DNA from: Leucobacter chromiiresistens
Lineage (GTDB): Bacteria; Actinomycetota; Actinomycetes; Actinomycetales; Microbacteriaceae
Assembly: GCF_900102345.1 (NCBI RefSeq)
Contig: NZ_FNKB01000001.1
Span: 558,001-622,000, forward strand
Direction: 5' to 3'
DNA: 64,000 nt
Shown here: one piece after another, positions 6,022-63,804 of the stretch
How positions within the stretch are numbered: position 1 is the first letter of the stretch
How the letters are laid out: every line of letters begins with the position of its first letter
Made by a program: the position numbers and the translations under genes
The notes under the pieces: model-generated
The model's input: only the letters and a program-made list of their open reading frames with translations
What the model was told of the DNA's origin: nothing
Database searches by the model: none

Positions 6022-6825
6022 ATGATCACTCTGACCATCGCCGACGACGTCGCGGAGATCACCCTCGACGCGCCCGAGCGCCTGAACGCGCTCGGCCCCG
6101 ACGACCTCCGCGAGCTCTCGGAGGCATACGCGCGCGCCGAGCAGCAGCGGGTGCGCGCACTCGTGCTGCGCGGGGAGGGGCTCGCGTTCTGCGCGGGGCG
6201 CGACATCTCGGGCGTCGACCCGCGCACCGACGACGTACACGGCTATCTCGGCGAGCTCGTGCAGCCGCTGCTCGAGCGCATGAGCCGCTTCCCCGCCCCC
6301 ACGTTCGCCGCCGCGCACGGCGCGTGCCTCGGCGTCGGGCTCGGACTGCTCATCGCGACCGACGTGGTCTACGTCGCCGAGACCGCGAAGATCGGGAGCC
6401 CCTTCGCGAACCTCGGCGCGACCCTCGACTCGGGCGGGCACGCCCTGTTCTTCGAGCGGCTCGGCGCTCACCGCACCCTCGACCTCATCTACTCGGGCCG
6501 CCTCATGTCGGGCGCCGAGGCCGTGGCCTCGGGCCTCTTCTCGCGGTCGTTCCCCGACGCCGAGGTGCTCGACGCGACCCGTGCGGCTGCGGCGAGCGCG
6601 GCGCGCGGCGCGACCGAGGCGTTCCTCGCGTCGAAGGCGCTCGTCGCCGAGCTGCGCGATGAGCGCCTCGGGCTGTGGCGGTCGATGGCGCACGAGAACC
6701 GCGTGCAGGCCGCGCTCTGCGGCACCGACGACTACCGGGAGGGGTTCGCGGCGTTCCAGCAGAAGCGGCGGCCCGAGTTCACCGGCGGCTCCCGCTCCCA
6801 GCGCTCCTCCGAGGTGCAGGCGTGA
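6022..6825 (+). CDS. enoyl-CoA hydratase/isomerase (PaaF/PaaG-like)
   Basis: A 267-residue crotonase-fold enzyme. The oxyanion-hole loops are seen as AFCAGRDISG near residue 57 and HGACLGVGLGLLIATD near residue 100. By position directly after paaE it most likely handles a pathway intermediate, either isomerising the ring epoxide (PaaG role) or hydrating dehydroadipyl-CoA (PaaF role); the sequence alone does not separate these. The stop overlaps the next start by four bases, and the last 15 residues are Ser/Gln-rich and variable. Confidence 0.85.
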   Translation: MITLTIADDVAEITLDAPERLNALGPDDLRELSEAYARAEQQRVRALVLRGEGLAFCAGRDISGVDPRTDDVHGYLGELVQPLLERMSRFPAPTFAAAHGACLGVGLGLLIATDVVYVAETAKIGSPFANLGATLDSGGHALFFERLGAHRTLDLIYSGRLMSGAEAVASGLFSRSFPDAEVLDATRAAAASAARGATEAFLASKALVAELRDERLGLWRSMAHENRVQAALCGTDDYREGFAAFQQKRRPEFTGGSRSQRSSEVQA

Positions 6826-9006: not shown

Positions 9007-9903
9007 GTGTTCACCGGTCTCAGCGCGTTTCCCCTCACCCCCTTCGTCGACGACGCCGTCGACGAAACCGCCTACGCCAGCCTCGTCGAGCGGCTCGCCG
9101 CCACCGAGGTCGACTCGATCACCGCCCTCGGATCGACGGGCTCGTACGCGTACCTGAGCCCCGAGGAGCGCTCGCGCGTCGCCCGCCTCGCCGTCGCGCA
9201 CGCGGGCGCGACCCCCGTGCACGTCGGAGTCGGCGCGCTCCGCACCTCGCACGTGCTCGACAACGTGCGGAGCGCCGAGGCCGCCGGAGCCTCGGGGGTG
9301 CTGCTCGCGCCGATGACCTACCAGCCGCTCACCGACGACGACGTCTTCGAGCTGTTCGCCGCCGTCGCGGGGGCCACGCAGCTGCCCATCATCGTCTACG
9401 ACAACCCCGGCACGACGCATTTCGCGTTCACCACCGAGCTCTACGGCCGCATCGCGCAGCTGCCCGGCATCGCGTCGGTCAAGATTCCCGCCCTGCCCGC
9501 CGACGCGACGGCCGCCGCGGATCGCATGGCCCGGATCCGGGCGGTGCTCCCCGAGCACGTCACCGTCGGCATCTCGGGCGACGCGTTCGCCGCCGCGGGC
9601 CTCGCGGCGGGGTGCGACGCCTGGTACTCGGTGACCGCCGGCACGCTGCCGCAGACCGCGCTGCGCATCCTCCGCGCGGCGCGGTCGGGCGATCCGGGCG
9701 CCGGGATCCGGGAATCGGAGGCGCTGCACCCCCTCTGGCGCCTCTTCAGTACGATGAGCGGCAGCCTGCGCGTCGTCGCCGCGATCGCCGAGCACCTCGG
9801 GCTCGTGCGCCGCGGATCCCTCCCCCTCCCGATCCTCGGCCTCACCGAGGCGCAGCGCGCCGAAGTCGCACAGGTCGCAGATGACCTCGGCCTCGTCAGC
9901 TGA
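9007..9903 (+). CDS. DapA/NAL-family lyase or synthase
   Basis: A 298-residue TIM-barrel enzyme of the dihydrodipicolinate synthase/N-acetylneuraminate lyase family. The GSTGSYAYLS loop near residue 38 stands for the GTTGE motif, YDNPGTT near residue 130 carries the catalytic tyrosine, and VKIPA near residue 158 the Schiff-base lysine. The usual DapA glutamate after GSTG is replaced, so a 2-keto acid aldolase role is more likely than lysine synthesis. The GTG start at 9007 has GGAG six bases upstream. The 188 bases to the MocR gene must hold both promoters. Confidence 0.82.
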   Translation: MFTGLSAFPLTPFVDDAVDETAYASLVERLAATEVDSITALGSTGSYAYLSPEERSRVARLAVAHAGATPVHVGVGALRTSHVLDNVRSAEAAGASGVLLAPMTYQPLTDDDVFELFAAVAGATQLPIIVYDNPGTTHFAFTTELYGRIAQLPGIASVKIPALPADATAAADRMARIRAVLPEHVTVGISGDAFAAAGLAAGCDAWYSVTAGTLPQTALRILRAARSGDPGAGIRESEALHPLWRLFSTMSGSLRVVAAIAEHLGLVRRGSLPLPILGLTEAQRAEVAQVADDLGLVS

Positions 9904-22709: not shown

Positions 22710-23015
22710 TTACCAGCTCGACTTGGTGATGCCGGGCAGCTCGCCCCGGTGCGCCATGTCGCGGAAACGCACACGCGAGACGCCGTACTTCGTCAGCACG
22801 CCGCGGGGGCGGCCGTCGATGACGTCGCGGCTGCGCACGCGCACCGGCGAAGCGTTGCGGGGCAGCTTCTGCAGCCCGACGCGTGCCGCCTCGCGGCTCT
22901 CGTCGGTGCCGTTCGGATCGACGAGGGCCTTCTTCAGCTCGAGGCGCTTCGCCGCGTAACGCGCAACGATCGCCTGACGCTGCTTGTTCTTCGCAATCAT
23001 GCTCTTCTTCGCCAT
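22710..23015 (-). CDS. rpsN: ribosomal protein S14, zinc-free type
   Basis: A 101-residue S14 of the long form that lacks the CxxC zinc ribbon; no cysteine is present. [22 protein letters not shown] and the [19 protein letters not shown] ending are conserved. In several actinobacteria such cysteine-free copies replace zinc-binding ones when zinc is scarce. It follows rpmG by two bases. Confidence 0.96.
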
Positions 23016-23017
23016 GA

Positions 23018-23185
23018 TTAACGCTCCTCTCGGAAGTCGACGTGCTTGCGGATGACCGGGTCGTACTTCTTCAGCACGAGACGATCGGGGGTGTTGCGAC
23101 GGTTCTTCTTGGTCACATAGGTGAACCCGGTGCCTGCCGTCGAACGGAGCTTGATGATCGGACGTACGTCCTTGTCCTTAGCCAT
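23018..23185 (-). CDS. rpmG: ribosomal protein L33, zinc-free type
   Basis: A 55-residue protein reading [20 protein letters not shown] then [16 protein letters not shown] and ending VDFREER. There are no cysteines, so it is the non-zinc form. The ATG at 23185 shares one base with the rpmB stop (TAATG), giving tight coupling. Confidence 0.96.
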
Positions 23186-23421
23186 TAGAGCTTCACCCCG
23201 CGCTTCTGCAGATCAGCGACTACCGACTCGATGCCGCGTGCATCGATCATCTTGATGCCCTTGACCGAGAGGGTCAGGGTCACCTTGCGACCGAGCGAGG
23301 GCACGTAGTAGGTCTTCTTCTGGATGTTCGGATCGAACCGACGCTTCGTGCGACGGTGCGAGTGCGAAATGTTGTGTCCGAAGCCGGGAACGGCGCCGGT
23401 CACCTGGCACACTGCTGCCAT
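23185..23421 (-). CDS. rpmB: ribosomal protein L28
   Basis: A 78-residue L28 with the conserved opening [20 protein letters not shown] and the [11 protein letters not shown] core. It has a single cysteine rather than two CxxC pairs, like the E. coli form. It is the first gene of rpmB-rpmG-rpsN. The chosen ATG gives the standard family length. Confidence 0.96.
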
Positions 23422-23561
23422 GATGTTTCCTCTCATACCGTGAGACCGGACGGCCTCACCCAAGATTTCTTGTCTGCGCGAGTCTGCGACGGCGCCGGTC
23501 TCGGCTCGCTGCGATCGATTCACGCGGTCTGTGCACTGGGACGGCGCACAGCCAAAGATCG

Positions 23562-23590
23562 AGCATACGTCATTACGGCGCTTCGGGCAA
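23562..23590 (-). promoter_or_regulatory. predicted rpmB operon promoter
   Basis: TTGCCC (23585-23590) and TATGCT (23562-23567) on the minus strand are 17 bases apart. The transcript would carry a leader of roughly 135 bases. I see no Zur-type TGA-AT-TCA palindrome here. Confidence 0.6.
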
Positions 23591-23614
23591 GTGGAACGGC
23601 GGCGAGCGGGCGCT

Positions 23615-24247
23615 TCAGGCGTCGTGCTCGCGCTTCACCTGCGCAAGGCGCGTCTCCGCCTGCGCGTAGGCGAGTGATTCCTGCTCGAGCACGTACTCGA
23701 GGTCTCCGATGTTGGTGCGCAGGATCTTCACCACGTCGTCGAGTTCGGCGCGCGCCCCGATCTGCTCGCTGATCCGCGCCTCGGCTTCGCGTATCCGCGC
23801 CTGCTCGGAGTCGAGGGCCGCCTTCGCCCGGGCGAGGTTCTGCCGCGCGATCTCGACTTCGGATTCGACGCGGGCCTTGTCGCGCACGACGTCGCGCAGC
23901 TCCTCCTCCGCCTCGAGGCGGGCGCGGCGCAGGCGCTCCGCCTCTTTGGCCGCGAGGCGGCGCTCCCACTCGGAGAGCGACGCGCCGCCATCGGCATGGG
24001 GTGCTGCACGCCGCTCCGAAGGGGCGTGCGGGGGCGCGGGGTCGTGCGCCTCGCGAACGGGAGCGCTGTTGCGCGCGATCCAGTCGGCGAGCATGGGGGT
24101 GATGTTCGCGTGCTCGGCGACCCTGCCCCGGAGCTCGGGGAACTTCGCGGCGATCTCCGCGAGTTCGGCGGCCGCGGTCGTGGGCGCGGCGAGCAGCTCG
24201 CGGGCGGCGTCGAGCGTCAGGCGTGCAGGCGCGGACTCCCGGTTCAC
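23615..24247 (-). CDS. LRV-domain coiled-coil protein, short
   Basis: A 210-residue protein. Residues 8-58 form a small helical domain ([20 protein letters not shown] then DWIARNS) like the variant leucine-rich repeat found in many actinobacterial proteins; the last 115 residues are a continuous charged coiled coil. The domain is clearly homologous to that of the next gene upstream. The GTG at 24247 overlaps its stop. No enzyme motif is present; a structural or scaffolding role is inferred from the operon. Confidence 0.8.
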
Positions 24248-25737
24248 GATTCGTCGAGGGAGCGCTGCGCGGCGCCCATCAGCGCCAGGCGTTCTTCGAG
24301 TTCGACGCGCAGCAGCCGCTCGCGCCGCTCGCGCTCCTCCGCTGCGGAGCGGCCGTCGCTCTCGGCGTCGAGCCGCGCTTCGAGGGCGAGCCGCGACTGG
24401 GTCTCGTCGAAGATGGTCTGCTCGAGCTGGCGCGCGCGCGAGCGCTCGTCCGTGAGCAGCGCCTCGAGTTCGGTCACGCGCAGCTCCAGCTCGGCTTCGG
24501 CGGCGACGTTCTCGACGGTGCGCTGCTCGGCCTGACGCTCCATCTCGGATCGGAACACGTCGAGTTCGTTCTGCAGCGAGAGCAGTTGCTCGTTCAGGTC
24601 GGCGACCTGCGCCTCGGCGCTCTTCCGTGCGCTGCGCTCGACCGATACCTGGGCCTCCAGTTCGGTGCGCATGAGCGATTCGTTGCGCGCGCGGGCCTCG
24701 GCCTCGGATCGGGTGTCGGCCTCGGCGGTGAGCAGTGCCTCGGTCTCGAAGGCGAGCTGCGAGACGACGGCGAGCCGTTCGTCGAGCGTCGCCCGCTCCT
24801 CCGCCAGCTGCGTGAGGCGCTCGCCCGCCTGCTCGAGCTCGGCTTCGGTTGCGGCGCGCTGCTGCTGCTCCTCCTCGTGCTGCGCCGTCAGCTCCTCGAT
24901 CTCGCGGCGCAGCTCGACGAGTTGGGTTTCGAGGCTTCGCCGCACCTCGGCCTCGCTCCTCGCGAGGGCTTCGGCTCGCTCGCGCGCCTCCTCCTCGAGT
25001 CTGCTCTGCGCTTCGGCCGAGGCGCGCGCGCGGGCTTCGGCGAGCGTCTCCTCCTGCGATCGGTCCCTCGCTTCGAAGGCGAGCTGCACCCGCGCCTCCG
25101 CTTCGAGGCGTGCTTTCACCTCGGCGTCGAGCTGCGCGCGCATGTCGCGCAGCCGGGTGTCGGAGTACTCCCGCAGCTCCGTGTCGCGGTCGGTGGCACC
25201 GCGCGGGGTCTTCGGCTCCTCGAACGCGGCGGCGTAGCGGGCGCGGAGCTTCTCGATGGAGGCCTGCGTCGCGGTCGGCTGCGGCCGCTCCGCGACCGAC
25301 TGCGGTCGCGGCGCGGTCGCCGTGTCGACGCGCGCCTCCGGCGCGGGCCGCGGCTTCGGCTCGCTGATGCGCGTCGCCCGATCGAGCCCCGGGCGCTTCT
25401 CGGCGCCGGCCCCGGCCTCCGGCCCGTCCGCTGCCGCGCGCGCCCCCGCGTTCGCGGCGTGCGGGCGTCGCGGCGGCACCGCTGCCGGTTTCGCACCGGT
25501 GTCGCTCGGCCCCTGGTATTCGGGCACGCTGGGCTCCGATTCGGCGTCGTCTCCGCTCGTCTCCCGTCTCGCGACCTCGTCCATCCAGTCGATGAGATCC
25601 GGGTAGACGTTCGGGTGCTGGCGGATCCGGTCGCGCAGCGGGGCGTGCTGCGCCGCGATCTCGGCGAGAATGCGTGCGGACGTGCTCTGATCGGCAACGA
25701 GGATCTCTGCCGTTTGATCGCTGATCTGCAGTTTCAT
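24244..25737 (-). CDS. LRV-domain coiled-coil protein, long
   Basis: A 497-residue protein. Residues 1-55 are the same helical LRV-like domain (LAEIAAQHAPLRDRIRQHPN then LIDWMDEV); 60-165 is a Pro/Ala/Arg linker; 185-497 is one unbroken coiled coil rich in Glu, Ala, Arg and Leu heptads. It resembles intermediate-filament-like proteins of actinobacteria in layout only. No membrane segment is seen. It overlaps the short paralogue and lies 15 bases after a DivIVA-like gene. Confidence 0.82.
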   Translation of the reverse strand: MKLQISDQTAEILVADQSTSARILAEIAAQHAPLRDRIRQHPNVYPDLIDWMDEVARRETSGDDAESEPSVPEYQGPSDTGAKPAAVPPRRPHAANAGARAAADGPEAGAGAEKRPGLDRATRISEPKPRPAPEARVDTATAPRPQSVAERPQPTATQASIEKLRARYAAAFEEPKTPRGATDRDTELREYSDTRLRDMRAQLDAEVKARLEAEARVQLAFEARDRSQEETLAEARARASAEAQSRLEEEARERAEALARSEAEVRRSLETQLVELRREIEELTAQHEEEQQQRAATEAELEQAGERLTQLAEERATLDERLAVVSQLAFETEALLTAEADTRSEAEARARNESLMRTELEAQVSVERSARKSAEAQVADLNEQLLSLQNELDVFRSEMERQAEQRTVENVAAEAELELRVTELEALLTDERSRARQLEQTIFDETQSRLALEARLDAESDGRSAAEERERRERLLRVELEERLALMGAAQRSLDES

Positions 25738-25752
25738 GTCGGCTCTCCTCCA

Positions 25753-26835
25753 CTATCCGTTGTGCCGGTCGGCGCTCGCCTGCCGCAGATGCTCTTCGAT
25801 CTGCGCGATGACGGTTTCGGTCTTGCGCGAGACGCGGTGGTCGTCGATGAACGTGCGGATGAACTCCGCCTCGTCGTTGAGCGCTTCGAGTCGGGCCTGC
25901 GCGCGGGCGTGCACCTTGTCGGAGAACATCTCGACCTGGTTCACCAGGTTGTTGGAGTACAGCTGCGCCTGCTCGATCAGGTCGGAGGCGTGCTTGCGCG
26001 CCTCCGCATGCTGCCGCTGCACCTCCTGCCGCAGGCGCTCGTGGAGGGCTTCGCTCTCCTGCCCGACCGCATAGGCGCGCTCGTTGATCTCGGCCGCCTT
26101 CAGGTTCGCCTGGTCCAGGATGGCCGCCGAGCGCTCCGTGGCCTCCGACAGCGCCCGGTCGCACTGGGCCTCGACCTCCGCCTGGCGCTCCAGCAGCATG
26201 CGCTCGACCTCGATCGCATGGTGCTCGGTCTCCTCGCGGAGCCGGTGGATCTCCTCGCGCTGCTGATCGATGTGCGCCTGGGCCTCCTGGCGGGCCTGCA
26301 TGATCTCGCCCTCGGCGACGGCGCGGATGTTCGCCGCGTCGCGTTTGGCCTGCGTGACGGCTTCGCTCGCCTCTCCGAGCCGGGCGTTGGCGATCGCGGC
26401 GACCTCGACGGCGGCCGTCTCGCCTTGGAGCGCCGCATCCTTGGCTCGGCGCTGCGCCTCGTTGAGGATGTGCTCCGCCTGCTCCTCGCTGCTGCGGAGC
26501 AGGCGCTGCGCCGCCGCTTCGGCTTCGACGGTGATCGATTCCGAGCGCCGCTTCGCCTCGTCGAGCATGTGCTCGGCCTGCACCTCGGCGGTGCGGAGCA
26601 CCTCCTCGAACTTCGAGCCGAGCCCCGCGAAGGTGGGCTTCTGCGACTGCGCCTTGCTGAGGTTCTTGTTGGCGATCTCGAGCTCGGTCTCGATCGCCCG
26701 CATCCGCTCGGTGAGCGCACCGCGTTCGGCTTGGAGTTCGTCGATCGTGGAGTCGAGGTTGCGCAGCAATCGGTCGACTTCGTGGCGCGAGTATCCCTTC
26801 CGCTCCGGGGAGATCGCGTACGTGTGCATGCTCAT
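25753..26835 (-). CDS. DivIVA-like coiled-coil protein
   Basis: A 360-residue almost wholly helical protein. The opening YAISPERKGYSRHEVDRLLRN (split across residues 6-26) looks like the membrane-binding N-terminus of DivIVA/Wag31 proteins, followed by coiled coil to the end. DivIVA relatives mark curved membrane at poles and septa and steer wall growth. The ATG at 26835 overlaps the previous stop (ATGA); an ATG at 26829 is the alternative. It is not the canonical divIVA, which sits near ftsZ. Confidence 0.75.
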   Translation of the reverse strand: MSMHTYAISPERKGYSRHEVDRLLRNLDSTIDELQAERGALTERMRAIETELEIANKNLSKAQSQKPTFAGLGSKFEEVLRTAEVQAEHMLDEAKRRSESITVEAEAAAQRLLRSSEEQAEHILNEAQRRAKDAALQGETAAVEVAAIANARLGEASEAVTQAKRDAANIRAVAEGEIMQARQEAQAHIDQQREEIHRLREETEHHAIEVERMLLERQAEVEAQCDRALSEATERSAAILDQANLKAAEINERAYAVGQESEALHERLRQEVQRQHAEARKHASDLIEQAQLYSNNLVNQVEMFSDKVHARAQARLEALNDEAEFIRTFIDDHRVSRKTETVIAQIEEHLRQASADRHNG

Positions 26836-28421
26836 GGGGTCGGTGTCTTTCTCGTGGGTGCCGGGCGTTCCGCCGCGATCGTGATCTGGTTGCGGTCGCG
26901 GGAGCGGGCCGGTGGCCCTGCGGCACTGCGACGGAGGGGCAGGGGCGTCGCGAGCAGCCCGGCGGACGTCCATCCCGCGACGGTGTCTTCCAGGTGCGGC
27001 CAGGCGAATATCGCGAACCCGGCTGCGAGCAGTGCGATGATCAGCACGGCGAGCATGAGGTCGACGGCGCCCCAGCCCCGCTTGCCGCTCGGCTCCTCGC
27101 CGGTCGCGGCGGTCGCGGCGTCGAGCTTCTCGGGCTGCTTCTCGGATCCGCTGCGTTTCGCCTTCACCGCGTCGCGCATCTGCTGCTTGCGCGCCTTCGC
27201 CCGGCGCTTCTCCTCGCGCTGCTCCTGCTGCAGGTATCGACGCGCCTCGCGGTCGGCCTTCTTCCGCTCCTTCTTGGTGCGCTCGTCGAACGCGTCGACC
27301 GGAACGAAGCCGGTTCTTCTCCGAGCCGGGTGATCGGGACCGTGAGGATCCTCCGGCGCGTCGCCCTCCGCCGCGCCCGCGGCGGCGGCGCCGTTCTGCA
27401 CGGCACCGCCGTCGGCGCCCGCCGCCGCATCGGTGCTGGCCACCGCATCGGTGCTGGTCGCCGCATCGGTGCTGGCCGGCTCCGGCGCGGATGCGCGCTG
27501 CTCGGCGGGCGCCGGTGCTGCGGGCTCCGCTTCGGCAGGCTCCGCTTCGGCAGGCGCCGCTGCGCGGGGCTCCGGTGCTGCGAGCTCTGCCGCGGCGGCG
27601 ATCGCGGGTGCCGGTGCCGACTGGGCGGGCGCCCGCGCAGCGAGCACCGGCTCCGTATCCGCCTCGGACTCCGGTGCGGCTGCGCCCGGGGCCGCGGCCC
27701 CCGTCGTCGCTTCCGCCGTCGGCTCCATCGACGCGGGCTCCATCGACGCGGGCTCCGTCGACGCGGGCTCCGTCGCCGTCGGCTCCATCGCCGCCGAGTC
27801 CGTGGTCTCCGGCTTCGCGGGTTCCGCCGCTCGGTCGACGTCGGTCGACGCCGCATCGGCCCGCAGCGCATCCTGCGCCGGTGGAACGTGCGCTGCACCT
27901 GCGGTTCTCGACGGGGCGATTCTCGGCGAAGCCGCCGCCGCAGTGCCCGTCGCGATCGACGGGGCCGTTTCCGCTGAGCTCGCACCCGCGGCGGGGAGCG
28001 CCGATCGCACCGTCCCGGGCGGCGTCACCGCACCGCGGCGCTCCCCGGTGGCGATCTCGCCGGTGTCGATCAGCGCCGCGGTGCGCGTCGCATCGGCCCG
28101 GCTCTTGCGCAGGAGCGCGACATTCGATTCGAGCTTGGCCTGCTGGGCGCGCAGCTGCTCGAGGGTCGTGCGCACGCGCTCGAGCGACATCGCCTCCTCG
28201 GCCTGGCGCTGCTCGACGACGTGACGCTTCTGCGCGGCGCGCTGCACGGAGCGCTGCACCTCGACGAGCTCGTCACGGAGTCGGAGCAGCGTCACCTCCG
28301 CCGCGGCCTTCTCGCGCAGCACCCGAACGAGTTCGCCGTCGATGCGGGCGCGAGAGCGATCATCGCGGAGGGGCCGCTGGGCGGCGGCGCGCCAGTGCAG
28401 CCCGGTGCCGGTCTCCCCCAT
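26832..28421 (-). CDS. coiled-coil membrane protein with repeat linker
   Basis: A 529-residue protein with four parts: an N-terminal coiled coil (about 30-105), a long Ala/Pro/Glu/Thr linker with pentapeptide repeats such as EPASM (about 110-390), a very basic helix (about 405-445), and one membrane helix near 453-475 followed by a Pro/Arg-rich tail. No family was recognised. GGGAGA precedes the ATG. As first gene of the operon it may anchor the filament-forming partners to the membrane. Confidence 0.72.
   Translation of the reverse strand: MGETGTGLHWRAAAQRPLRDDRSRARIDGELVRVLREKAAAEVTLLRLRDELVEVQRSVQRAAQKRHVVEQRQAEEAMSLERVRTTLEQLRAQQAKLESNVALLRKSRADATRTAALIDTGEIATGERRGAVTPPGTVRSALPAAGASSAETAPSIATGTAAAASPRIAPSRTAGAAHVPPAQDALRADAASTDVDRAAEPAKPETTDSAAMEPTATEPASTEPASMEPASMEPTAEATTGAAAPGAAAPESEADTEPVLAARAPAQSAPAPAIAAAAELAAPEPRAAAPAEAEPAEAEPAAPAPAEQRASAPEPASTDAATSTDAVASTDAAAGADGGAVQNGAAAAGAAEGDAPEDPHGPDHPARRRTGFVPVDAFDERTKKERKKADREARRYLQQEQREEKRRAKARKQQMRDAVKAKRSGSEKQPEKLDAATAATGEEPSGKRGWGAVDLMLAVLIIALLAAGFAIFAWPHLEDTVAGWTSAGLLATPLPLRRSAAGPPARSRDRNQITIAAERPAPTRKTPTP
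27425..27478. repeat. 3 x 18-bp tandem repeat
   Basis: Three consecutive units of CCGCATCGGTGCTGGNCN inside the coiled-coil membrane gene, encoding ASTDA-type linker repeats. Confidence 0.7.
27721..27795. repeat. 5 x 15-bp tandem repeat
   Basis: Five units of GGCTCCATCGACGCG with a few substitutions, encoding EPASM/EPAST pentapeptides in the same linker. Confidence 0.75.
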
Positions 28422-28739
28422 AGTCGTCTCCCACTTCTCCGCCTGCTGTCGCCGCACCCGATCGCCGACCGCGCTCGCGGCCCCTGCGCGCGGCTCGCGG
28501 CGCGGCTGCCGGATCGCCGGCCGGGGCCGGAGGCGGGAGGGCGGTCACCGCTGTGCGGCGCTCACACATTTGGGTAAACGTACTGTCGCCGAAGCCGTTG
28601 CGCGGAGAAATCGCAGCACTTTGGGTAGTGAAACGCGATGTTTACGTATTCGGCAGCCCGTTCTCCGCGCACTTCCGGCGGGTTTTACGCATTCGGGCGA
28701 CGGGAAAGTGCGTATCGGGAACAGGCGTAGGCTGAGGCC
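28422..28739. promoter_or_regulatory. divergent control region, AT-richer with direct repeats
   Basis: This 318-base gap separates the coiled-coil operon from the SGNH hydrolase. It is lower in GC than its surroundings between 28560 and 28730. TTTGGGTA occurs at 28569-28576 and 28620-28627, and GTTTACGTATTCGG (28640-28653) recurs as GTTTTACGCATTCGG (28682-28696). No gene is present. I could not place a convincing promoter for the coiled-coil operon. Confidence 0.5.
28728..28733 (+). promoter_or_regulatory. -10 of a leaderless SGNH-hydrolase promoter
   Basis: TAGGCT lies six bases before the GTG at 28740. The GAGG in between is too close to act as a ribosome site. Confidence 0.5.
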
Positions 28740-62934: not shown

Positions 62935-63804
62935 TCAGCTCAGGCCGGCCAGTTCCCGAAGCTTCGCGAGCTGGAAGCGCGACACCTCGTCGGCCCGCTC
63001 GTCCTCGGCGAACACGTTCGACACGATGAGGGCGTCGTCGCGGTCGAGATACCCCGATGCGCGCAGGGCTCCGAAGAGCTCCTGCCAGTCGACGTCGCCG
63101 TCGCCGATCGCGAGGTGCTGGTGCACGCGCACCGCGTTGCCCGGCGGATTGGTGATGTAGCGCAGCGCGTGCGACCGGGTGTGGTCGAACGTGTCGGCGG
63201 CGTAGACGGCGCCGAGGCGATCACCGAGCTCCGGGATCAGGCTCGACGCCCGATCGCCCGAGTGGAAGGTGTGCGCCGCGACGTACACGAAGCCGACCCG
63301 ATCGGTGTTCAGCCCGCGGATGATGCGCCACGCCTCGAGGCCGTCCTCCACGAAGTCGTCGGGGTGGGGGTCGAAGTTGAGCGCGACCCCTTCCCGCTCG
63401 AGCACGGGGATGAGCTGCTCCATCGCGCGGTAGAAGGCGTACTCCGACTCCTCCTCGCGCTCGGGGCGACCTGAGAACTCGGTGTTCACGATGGGCGCCT
63501 CGAGCTCCGCGGCGATCTCGATGTAGCGGGTCGTGTTGAAGACGGCCGCTTCGACCTGGTGCGGTTCGGGCCCGCCGAAGCGCTGCACGGGCAGCACCGA
63601 GGTGATGGTCACTCCGGCGTCCTTCGCGCGCTTCTTCAGCTGCGCGATGAGCGCGCTGTCGACCTTCGGGTAGTGGAAGTGCCGCCCGAAGTCGGGGTTC
63701 GGCGTCAGCTGCAGGTACTCGTACCCGAGCCGCGCGACGACGTCGGGGAAGTCGAGCAGGTGGACGGAATCGTTGTACGGCGTGGGGTCGAGTGCGATGC
63801 GCAC
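62935..63804 (-). CDS. sugar phosphate isomerase/epimerase family protein (TIM barrel, 2)
   Basis: A 289-residue AP-endonuclease-2 barrel. VNTEFSGRPE, ALNFDPHPDDF near residue 143, VYVAAHTFHSG near 178 and VHQHLAIGDGDVDW near 230 carry candidate metal ligands; the usual Glu before the His-Pro is replaced by Asp. GAGGAGG precedes the GTG start. The substrate is unknown but fits the sugar cluster. Confidence 0.82.
   Translation of the reverse strand: MRIALDPTPYNDSVHLLDFPDVVARLGYEYLQLTPNPDFGRHFHYPKVDSALIAQLKKRAKDAGVTITSVLPVQRFGGPEPHQVEAAVFNTTRYIEIAAELEAPIVNTEFSGRPEREEESEYAFYRAMEQLIPVLEREGVALNFDPHPDDFVEDGLEAWRIIRGLNTDRVGFVYVAAHTFHSGDRASSLIPELGDRLGAVYAADTFDHTRSHALRYITNPPGNAVRVHQHLAIGDGDVDWQELFGALRASGYLDRDDALIVSNVFAEDERADEVSRFQLAKLRELAGLS

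Follow-up and report, generated by a model that had tools for sequence, protein, structure and literature searches.

Four same-strand genes in Leucobacter chromiiresistens, designated here A to D, form an operon whose products probably make up an accessory scaffold of the FilP kind, intermediate-filament-like and tethered to the membrane. The genes occupy 23615-28421 on the minus strand of the stretch of DNA that was analysed (64,000 nucleotides (nt), positions 558,001 to 622,000 of contig NZ_FNKB01000001.1, assembly GCF_900102345.1; hereafter the window). FilP of Streptomyces is an intermediate-filament-like protein which interacts with DivIVA at hyphal tips. FilP and its group have already been described (PMC9858780, PMC6599971, PMC4255298, PMC3296230, PMC11571769; these papers are cited from excerpts throughout). 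What appears to be new is an accessory operon that pairs a FilP-type rod (B) with a membrane protein (A) and two proteins carrying LRV_2 domains (C and D). The coordinates are collected in Table 1.

Scans of A-D against Pfam and NCBIfam gave as sole matches over their own cut-offs the DivIVA family in B (PF05103, 5.7e-8) and the LRV_2 family in C and D. Residues 13-21 of B form the motif KGYSRHEVD, with D replaced by S at the helix-capping position; in an alignment of 24 rows the G of the motif is invariant and the Y is present in at least 90%. An RGYDxxEVD motif followed by a heptad coil is the mark of DivIVA-like proteins, as stated in the excerpt of PMC9858780. The head coil of B (residues 18-63) has a period of 3.50 (p 0.002), and the rod behind it (residues 74-345) one of 3.62 (p 0.002), which lies between heptad (3.50) and hendecad (3.667), the repeat expected in the longer rods of the FilP/Scy group, and is compatible with a 7+11+11 mix (29/8). 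The AlphaFold2 model of B consists of a helix (17-62), a break and a rod helix of 286 residues (69-354), with a mean predicted local distance difference test score (pLDDT) of 82.9 and a predicted template modelling score (pTM) of 0.25; the conserved PTFAGLGSKFEEVLRTAE junction lies between the two helices. When a profile of 24 short FilP rows was compared with the PDB, it found the heads of DivIVA (2wuj, 4.3e-5), GpsB and Wag31 (6lfa), and designed helical bundles scored alike in the same list (4uos, 5.2e-5), so that the result is supportive and not proof.

A midpoint-rooted tree was built from 33 rows, namely two Wag31, six long FilP-like and 25 shorter proteins including B. A branch supported at 100/100 parts the two Wag31 rows from the other 31, and one of the shorter proteins (L130_8900) groups with the long rows. 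The part of FilP is taken in this tree by long proteins whose genes neighbour thioredoxin-like and glgB-like genes (names given by eye), in place of a named FilP sequence. B was rejected as an orthologue of Wag31/DivIVA, since it reaches 34.7 bits against a curated Wag31 cut-off of 260, and as PolyDIV, which has two to eight DivIVA-like domains per chain, since it carries one motif. From its sequence, B is assigned to the FilP/Scy kind of DivIVA-like proteins.

Within this kind, B is classed as a member of a short-FilP family of Microbacteriaceae. Its best relatives among the first 60 genomes come from G022 (99%), G029 (46%), G025 (45%) and G028 (29% and 26%), and 27 of the 60, its own included, contain a match at E <= 0.001, many of these being frames of about 1000 residues that resemble long FilPs. 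Among 398 sampled Microbacteriaceae genomes the profile of B at E <= 1e-15 detected short and long FilPs, mixed, in 223, and a profile of the G028 type at E <= 1e-30 found matches in 42, of which 41 are 0.9-2.8 Mb in size. At the 15 loci that were inspected one gene at a time, short FilPs occur singly or as tandem pairs, and their neighbours are mostly of housekeeping type (by eye). Tandem pairs of small-genome Microbacteriaceae were seen at L121, L122, L123, L126 and L131.

For the product of gene A, no Pfam or NCBIfam match was obtained at E <= 0.1. It comprises a helix-prone N-terminal part (residues ~20-112), an acidic linker of 263 residues rich in Ala, Pro, Ser, Thr and Gly (113-375), a basic stretch (376-450) and a single hydrophobic span (~455-473) with a Kyte-Doolittle value of 2.87, compared with maxima of 0.73, 1.01 and 1.01 in B, C and D. 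By the positive-inside rule the tail of ~55 residues after this transmembrane span is predicted to lie outside, and ~450 residues would be on the cytoplasmic side.

LRV_2 (PF25591, cut-off 27 bits) covers residues 13-59 of C (4.4e-12, 46.2 bits) and 12-60 of D (3.7e-11, 43.3 bits), and these are the sole matches to the family found in the genome. The head of C is followed by a Pro/Ala-rich linker and a long region rich in Glu, Arg and Ala, which is helix-prone by composition. The model of D shows a head of four helices, then a linker of low confidence (64-89) and a single helix of 117 residues (93-209), with a mean pLDDT of 84.5 and a pTM of 0.38; coiled-coil support in D is modest, the period being 3.50 at a p of 0.045 with Ala and 0.087 without. 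The original LRV proteins have a cysteine cluster before the repeats and an iron-sulphur cluster. C and D were rejected as proteins of this type, there being no cysteine in either. In other Leucobacter, 22 LRV_2-bearing frames on 18 fetched stretches contain the same small domain, mostly at the N-terminus; 19 contain one or more hydrophobic spans, three of them with many spans and LRV_2 at the C-terminus, and three are spanless (L138, L139 and L142). C and D differ from most of these proteins in being without a hydrophobic span, and they carry long helices or helix-prone sequence. The LRV_2 heads (24068-24247 and 25558-25737 in the window, 6581-6760 in L148) bear a weak resemblance to the Rad23 XPC-binding domain.

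An earlier note on this DNA, made from the letters and their open frames, had described four consecutive, mostly overlapping and enzyme-free genes for a coiled-coil membrane protein, a DivIVA-like coiled coil and two coiled coils with a common LRV-like head. The arrangement was confirmed: two of the three junctions overlap by 4 nt each (ATGA between A and B, GTGA between C and D), the third is a gap of 15 nt between B and C with GGAGG preceding C, and no enzyme family in Pfam or NCBIfam exceeded its cut-off in A-D. The DivIVA-like nature of B is borne out by PF05103, the motif and the head period, and it can be sharpened to the FilP/Scy kind. The membrane location of A is borne out by its one span, and the shared head of C and D is LRV_2; as for the coiled coils, the signal is strong in B, modest in D, marginal in A and not significant in C.

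The ratio of non-synonymous to synonymous substitution rates (dN/dS) was obtained by comparing genes of the window with those of L. chromiiresistens NS354. It amounts to 0.466 in A (494 codons, 8 gaps), 0.013 in B (360 codons), 0.165 in C (490 codons) and 0.351 in D (172 codons, the NS354 copy being cut by a contig end), and to 0.101 in the gene of the neighbouring SGNH hydrolase. Because of these values A-D behave as real genes, and the frames are ruled out as artefacts of high GC content. For gene B the value indicates very strong purifying selection. That four genes run in one direction and overlap at two junctions suggests a joint product, and A-D may be carried on one transcript. A consensus promoter of the sigma-70 type was looked for in the spacer 28422-28739 and was not found.

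Between rpmB and the SGNH hydrolase gene lies a variable spacer (window 23422-28739), and the operon is an accessory insertion there, because the examined sites of relatives are without A-D and are empty or hold other cargo. The hydrolase itself was found at >= 68% identity in 53 of 54 genomes of the genus (in two pieces in G027), with a match of only 43% in G066. At 20 sites of relatives, taken upstream of this gene, there was no tblastn match to any of A-D. The fetched stretch included rpmB in 15 cases, and in seven of these the interval from rpmB to the hydrolase gene held no called gene (L164, L165, L167, L170, L173, L174 and L180). Cargo in other such spacers, named by eye, comprises an acyltransferase-like gene (L162), transporter-like genes (L166, L168 and L169) and genes of small membrane proteins (L163 and L175). 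On the other side of the operon in the window, the genes rpsN, rpmG and rpmB (22710-23421) presumably encode cysteine-poor, zinc-independent forms of these ribosomal proteins. A tRNA-Ala with the anticodon AGC, unusual in bacteria, is predicted at 63494-63586 and is probably a false call.

Gene A is present in two of the 54 genus genomes, its own included, as judged from 27 of the 47-182 candidate places scored per genome. D beyond its head occurs in the same two; at E <= 0.001 D has matches in 13 of the 54 genomes, and all those outside the two fall in the LRV_2 part. In the other L. chromiiresistens genome, D is split across two contigs. In a protein collection, which gives proteins alone, homologues of D were found at 65% in L. 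alluvii, at 52% in Leucobacter sp. USHLN153 and at 62% in one further assembly, there on a contig of 89,306 bases; a homologue of B at 93% lies on a contig of equal length. Conserved synteny outside close relatives, whose lack the earlier note had named among the things that would refute its scaffold idea, is thus largely absent for the four-gene set. What recurs more widely is the family of B and, in L. chironomi, also a membrane protein built like A, immediately ahead of the B homologue and next to a sortase.

The genome of the window also encodes Wag31 (L083, where an FtsZ-like gene, so named by eye, lies a few genes away), a long FilP-like protein of 1041 residues and a PolyDIV-like protein (L082 8161-8763), so that B comes in addition to these. 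The label of the long protein is based on its RGYNREEVD motif, its junction and its position in the tree; its rod has a period of 3.66. With FilP of Streptomyces, which forms filaments in vitro and has a rod of 37 nm according to the excerpt of PMC6599971, B shares the DivIVA-like motif, the heptad head, a long rod of similar size (286 modelled residues against 37 nm) and an actinobacterial host. It differs in being second to a longer FilP-like protein, in its rod period of 3.62 and in sharing its operon with the genes of a membrane protein and of two LRV_2 proteins; this comparison is one of descriptions, not of sequences. The Scy-FilP-DivIVA polarisome of Streptomyces similarly unites several coiled-coil proteins in one scaffold, and some of the genes are adjacent (PMC4255298), whereas Scy exceeds 1000 residues and the cited excerpts mention no membrane-anchor or LRV_2 part. 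Wag31/DivIVA, PolyDIV, SepIVA and RsmP, as described in the cited excerpts, are likewise actinobacterial coiled-coil proteins of growth or division, the first three with DivIVA-like domains. Wag31 and a PolyDIV-like protein are encoded by separate genes in this genome, and SepIVA and RsmP enter the comparison by description. The earlier note, which knew of no described system with this four-gene combination, agrees with our literature search by title and start of abstract (FilP, LRV_2, DivIVA-type proteins with sortase or pili, Leucobacter), in which no account of such an operon was found.

The membrane-anchored filament or scaffold put forward in the earlier note remains the best reading, partly supported: the features of B and the transmembrane span of A speak for it, and the missing four-gene synteny does not. 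By analogy with its family, B would most likely dimerise through the head coil and assemble into a filament or mesh as FilP does in Streptomyces. Gene order and build suggest that A anchors this mesh to the membrane. C and D may serve as adaptors or cross-linkers whose helices bind B or A and whose LRV_2 heads face a partner. Because the genome already has its ordinary set of Wag31, long FilP-like and PolyDIV-like proteins, the module is more likely an optional addition with a specialised job, such as local stiffening or the placing of a surface structure, than a part of basic cell growth.

Several observations weigh against the tethered scaffold. The filament, the interactions, the localisation and the expression of A-D are predictions from sequence. 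The periodicity of the N-terminal 92 residues of A is marginal (p 0.21 with Ala, 0.03 without), and the coiled-coil signal of C is not significant (p 0.55 with Ala, 0.07 without). A evolves fast, as its dN/dS and gaps indicate, and B could bind the membrane or Wag31 directly, with A as a bystander. The 1041-residue protein that is called FilP-like has no Pfam DivIVA match. Finally, the operon is restricted to few Leucobacter and is therefore not generally required.

B might also be a plain extra FilP paralogue which joins Wag31 and the long FilP-like protein in strengthening growth at the poles, with A, C and D as loose helpers that have no distinct task. Lineage-specific duplications of DivIVA-like genes are common according to the excerpt of PMC9858780, short FilPs elsewhere include tandem duplicates with the housekeeping-type neighbours noted above, and SepIVA of S. 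venezuelae is located at the tip yet dispensable, as reported in the excerpt of PMC11571769. However, a dN/dS in B far under that of the neighbouring gene would be odd for a redundant copy, and the layout of the operon points to a joint product. We regard this explanation as possible but doubtful.

Another explanation is a special case of the tethered scaffold and shares in its probability. Short FilPs of Leucobacter would place sortase-assembled pili or another surface complex by means of a cytoplasmic platform, and the operon would act on a distant pilus locus. Matches to sortase and pilin (tblastn) lie within ~7 kb at all four short-FilP loci of the genus other than the operon (three genomes), at 0 of 35 short-FilP loci outside Leucobacter and at 0 of 8 long-FilP loci. 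These four loci were known to be pilus-linked before counting, those of G025 and L. chironomi count as one orthologous locus, and the 35 outside loci are a weak control, being mostly from small genomes that may or may not have sortase pili and several being cut by contig ends. In G025 and L. chironomi, adhesin/pilin-type genes, a sortase gene and the gene of a membrane protein come before the homologue of B on its strand, and an ileS-like gene comes after it. The two loci of G028 combine a pilin and a sortase with a helix-rich frame, a short FilP from a different subfamily and a regulator of the ROS/MUCR type. Because the two linkages involve different short-FilP subfamilies, the pairing of short FilP and pilus probably arose twice. 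Pfam confirmed the sortase in L034, L035 and L038 and the domains GramPos_pilinD1 and SpaA in L035, L036 and L038, with an LPXTG anchor above the cut-off in L038 only.

These loci have their weaknesses. In L. chironomi the match to pilin is a short one of ~47 codons (2.9e-9). The sortase of L036 is known only from tblastn and an open frame; L036 also contains two places (6285-6350 and ~9010-9330) whose translations resemble what we take to be known sequencing-adapter artefacts, and the assembly of G028:C8 is doubtful there. Partial decay of the copies is possible. An ATA in L. chironomi is aligned with the start ATG of B (L034 10340-10352, minus strand; L085 10000), and no in-frame ATG, GTG or TTG occurs upstream before a stop, although a shorter protein could begin at a GTG that immediately precedes the RGY motif; G025 has ATG. 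The A-like gene is one open frame in L. chironomi (L034) and is split over two frames in G025 (L035 8510-9654), which may reflect a frameshift, two genes or a sequencing error. A and the A-like protein of L. chironomi show no detectable sequence similarity. Moreover, the operon lies beside no sortase or pilin match at either of its two loci (the window and a 9.4-kb contig of L. chromiiresistens). The whole window gave no match to four sortase and four pilin queries at 1e-6, and the operon was rejected as a sortase-pilus operon on this basis. The genome of the window does contain a cluster of two pilins and a sortase at C1 ~329.5-334.4 kb, ~250 kb from the operon. Taken together, we consider a role of the operon in surface placement unlikely. 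In a bolder form, FilP-type filaments would have been recruited at least twice in Leucobacter as dedicated cytoplasmic platforms for sortase-assembled pili, once with a neighbour-encoded membrane anchor, and the operon would be an uncoupled form equipped with LRV_2; this appears improbable. Pilus placement by such scaffolds may nevertheless serve as a lead.

A membrane-signalling or defence-like complex instead of a cytoskeleton is very improbable: the PADLOC matches on which it draws (B to ZorA, 1.4e-3; D to LmuB, 7.9e-4 and 2.0e-3, and to PbeC, 7.3e-3) reflect a likeness to coiled parts of these proteins and fall in helical stretches, none of A-D has an enzyme or effector domain over a cut-off, no PHROG match was obtained at E <= 0.001, and no match was found to B among 50,697 phage records or to either B or D among 72,556 plasmid records.

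Table 1. Genes of the operon, its flanking spacers and FilP-like loci elsewhere in Leucobacter (window coordinates unless a locus is named)
Feature	Position	Strand	Basis or remark
Gene A, single-pass membrane protein, 529 aa	26832-28421	-	ATG start at 28421
Gene B, short FilP-type DivIVA-like protein, 360 aa	25753-26835	-	motif, heptad helix, rod helix
Gene C, protein with LRV_2 head, 497 aa	24244-25737	-	Pfam, composition
Gene D, protein with LRV_2 head and helix, 210 aa	23615-24247	-	GTG start; Pfam, model
Spacer from D to rpmB (start of rpmB-rpmG-rpsN block)	23422-23614		one flank of the accessory insertion
Divergent spacer from gene A to SGNH hydrolase	28422-28739		other flank of the accessory insertion
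FilP-like rods directly behind sortase and pilin-type genes	L034 9285-12417 (L. chironomi); L035 3596-10771 (G025); L038 2264-10998 (G028)		

Filament proteins of the FilP kind have so far been studied mainly at the tips of Streptomyces, as far as the cited excerpts describe. If the accessory membrane-tethered scaffold is the correct reading, the operon and its pilus-adjacent sister loci make it testable whether such filaments, beyond their part in growth, also provide local scaffolding for machines of the membrane or the surface. The short FilPs of small-genome Microbacteriaceae offer a compact set for studying filament evolution. Should the link to pili prove true, Leucobacter would possess a cytoskeleton of intermediate-filament-like type that is dedicated to an appendage of the cell surface.

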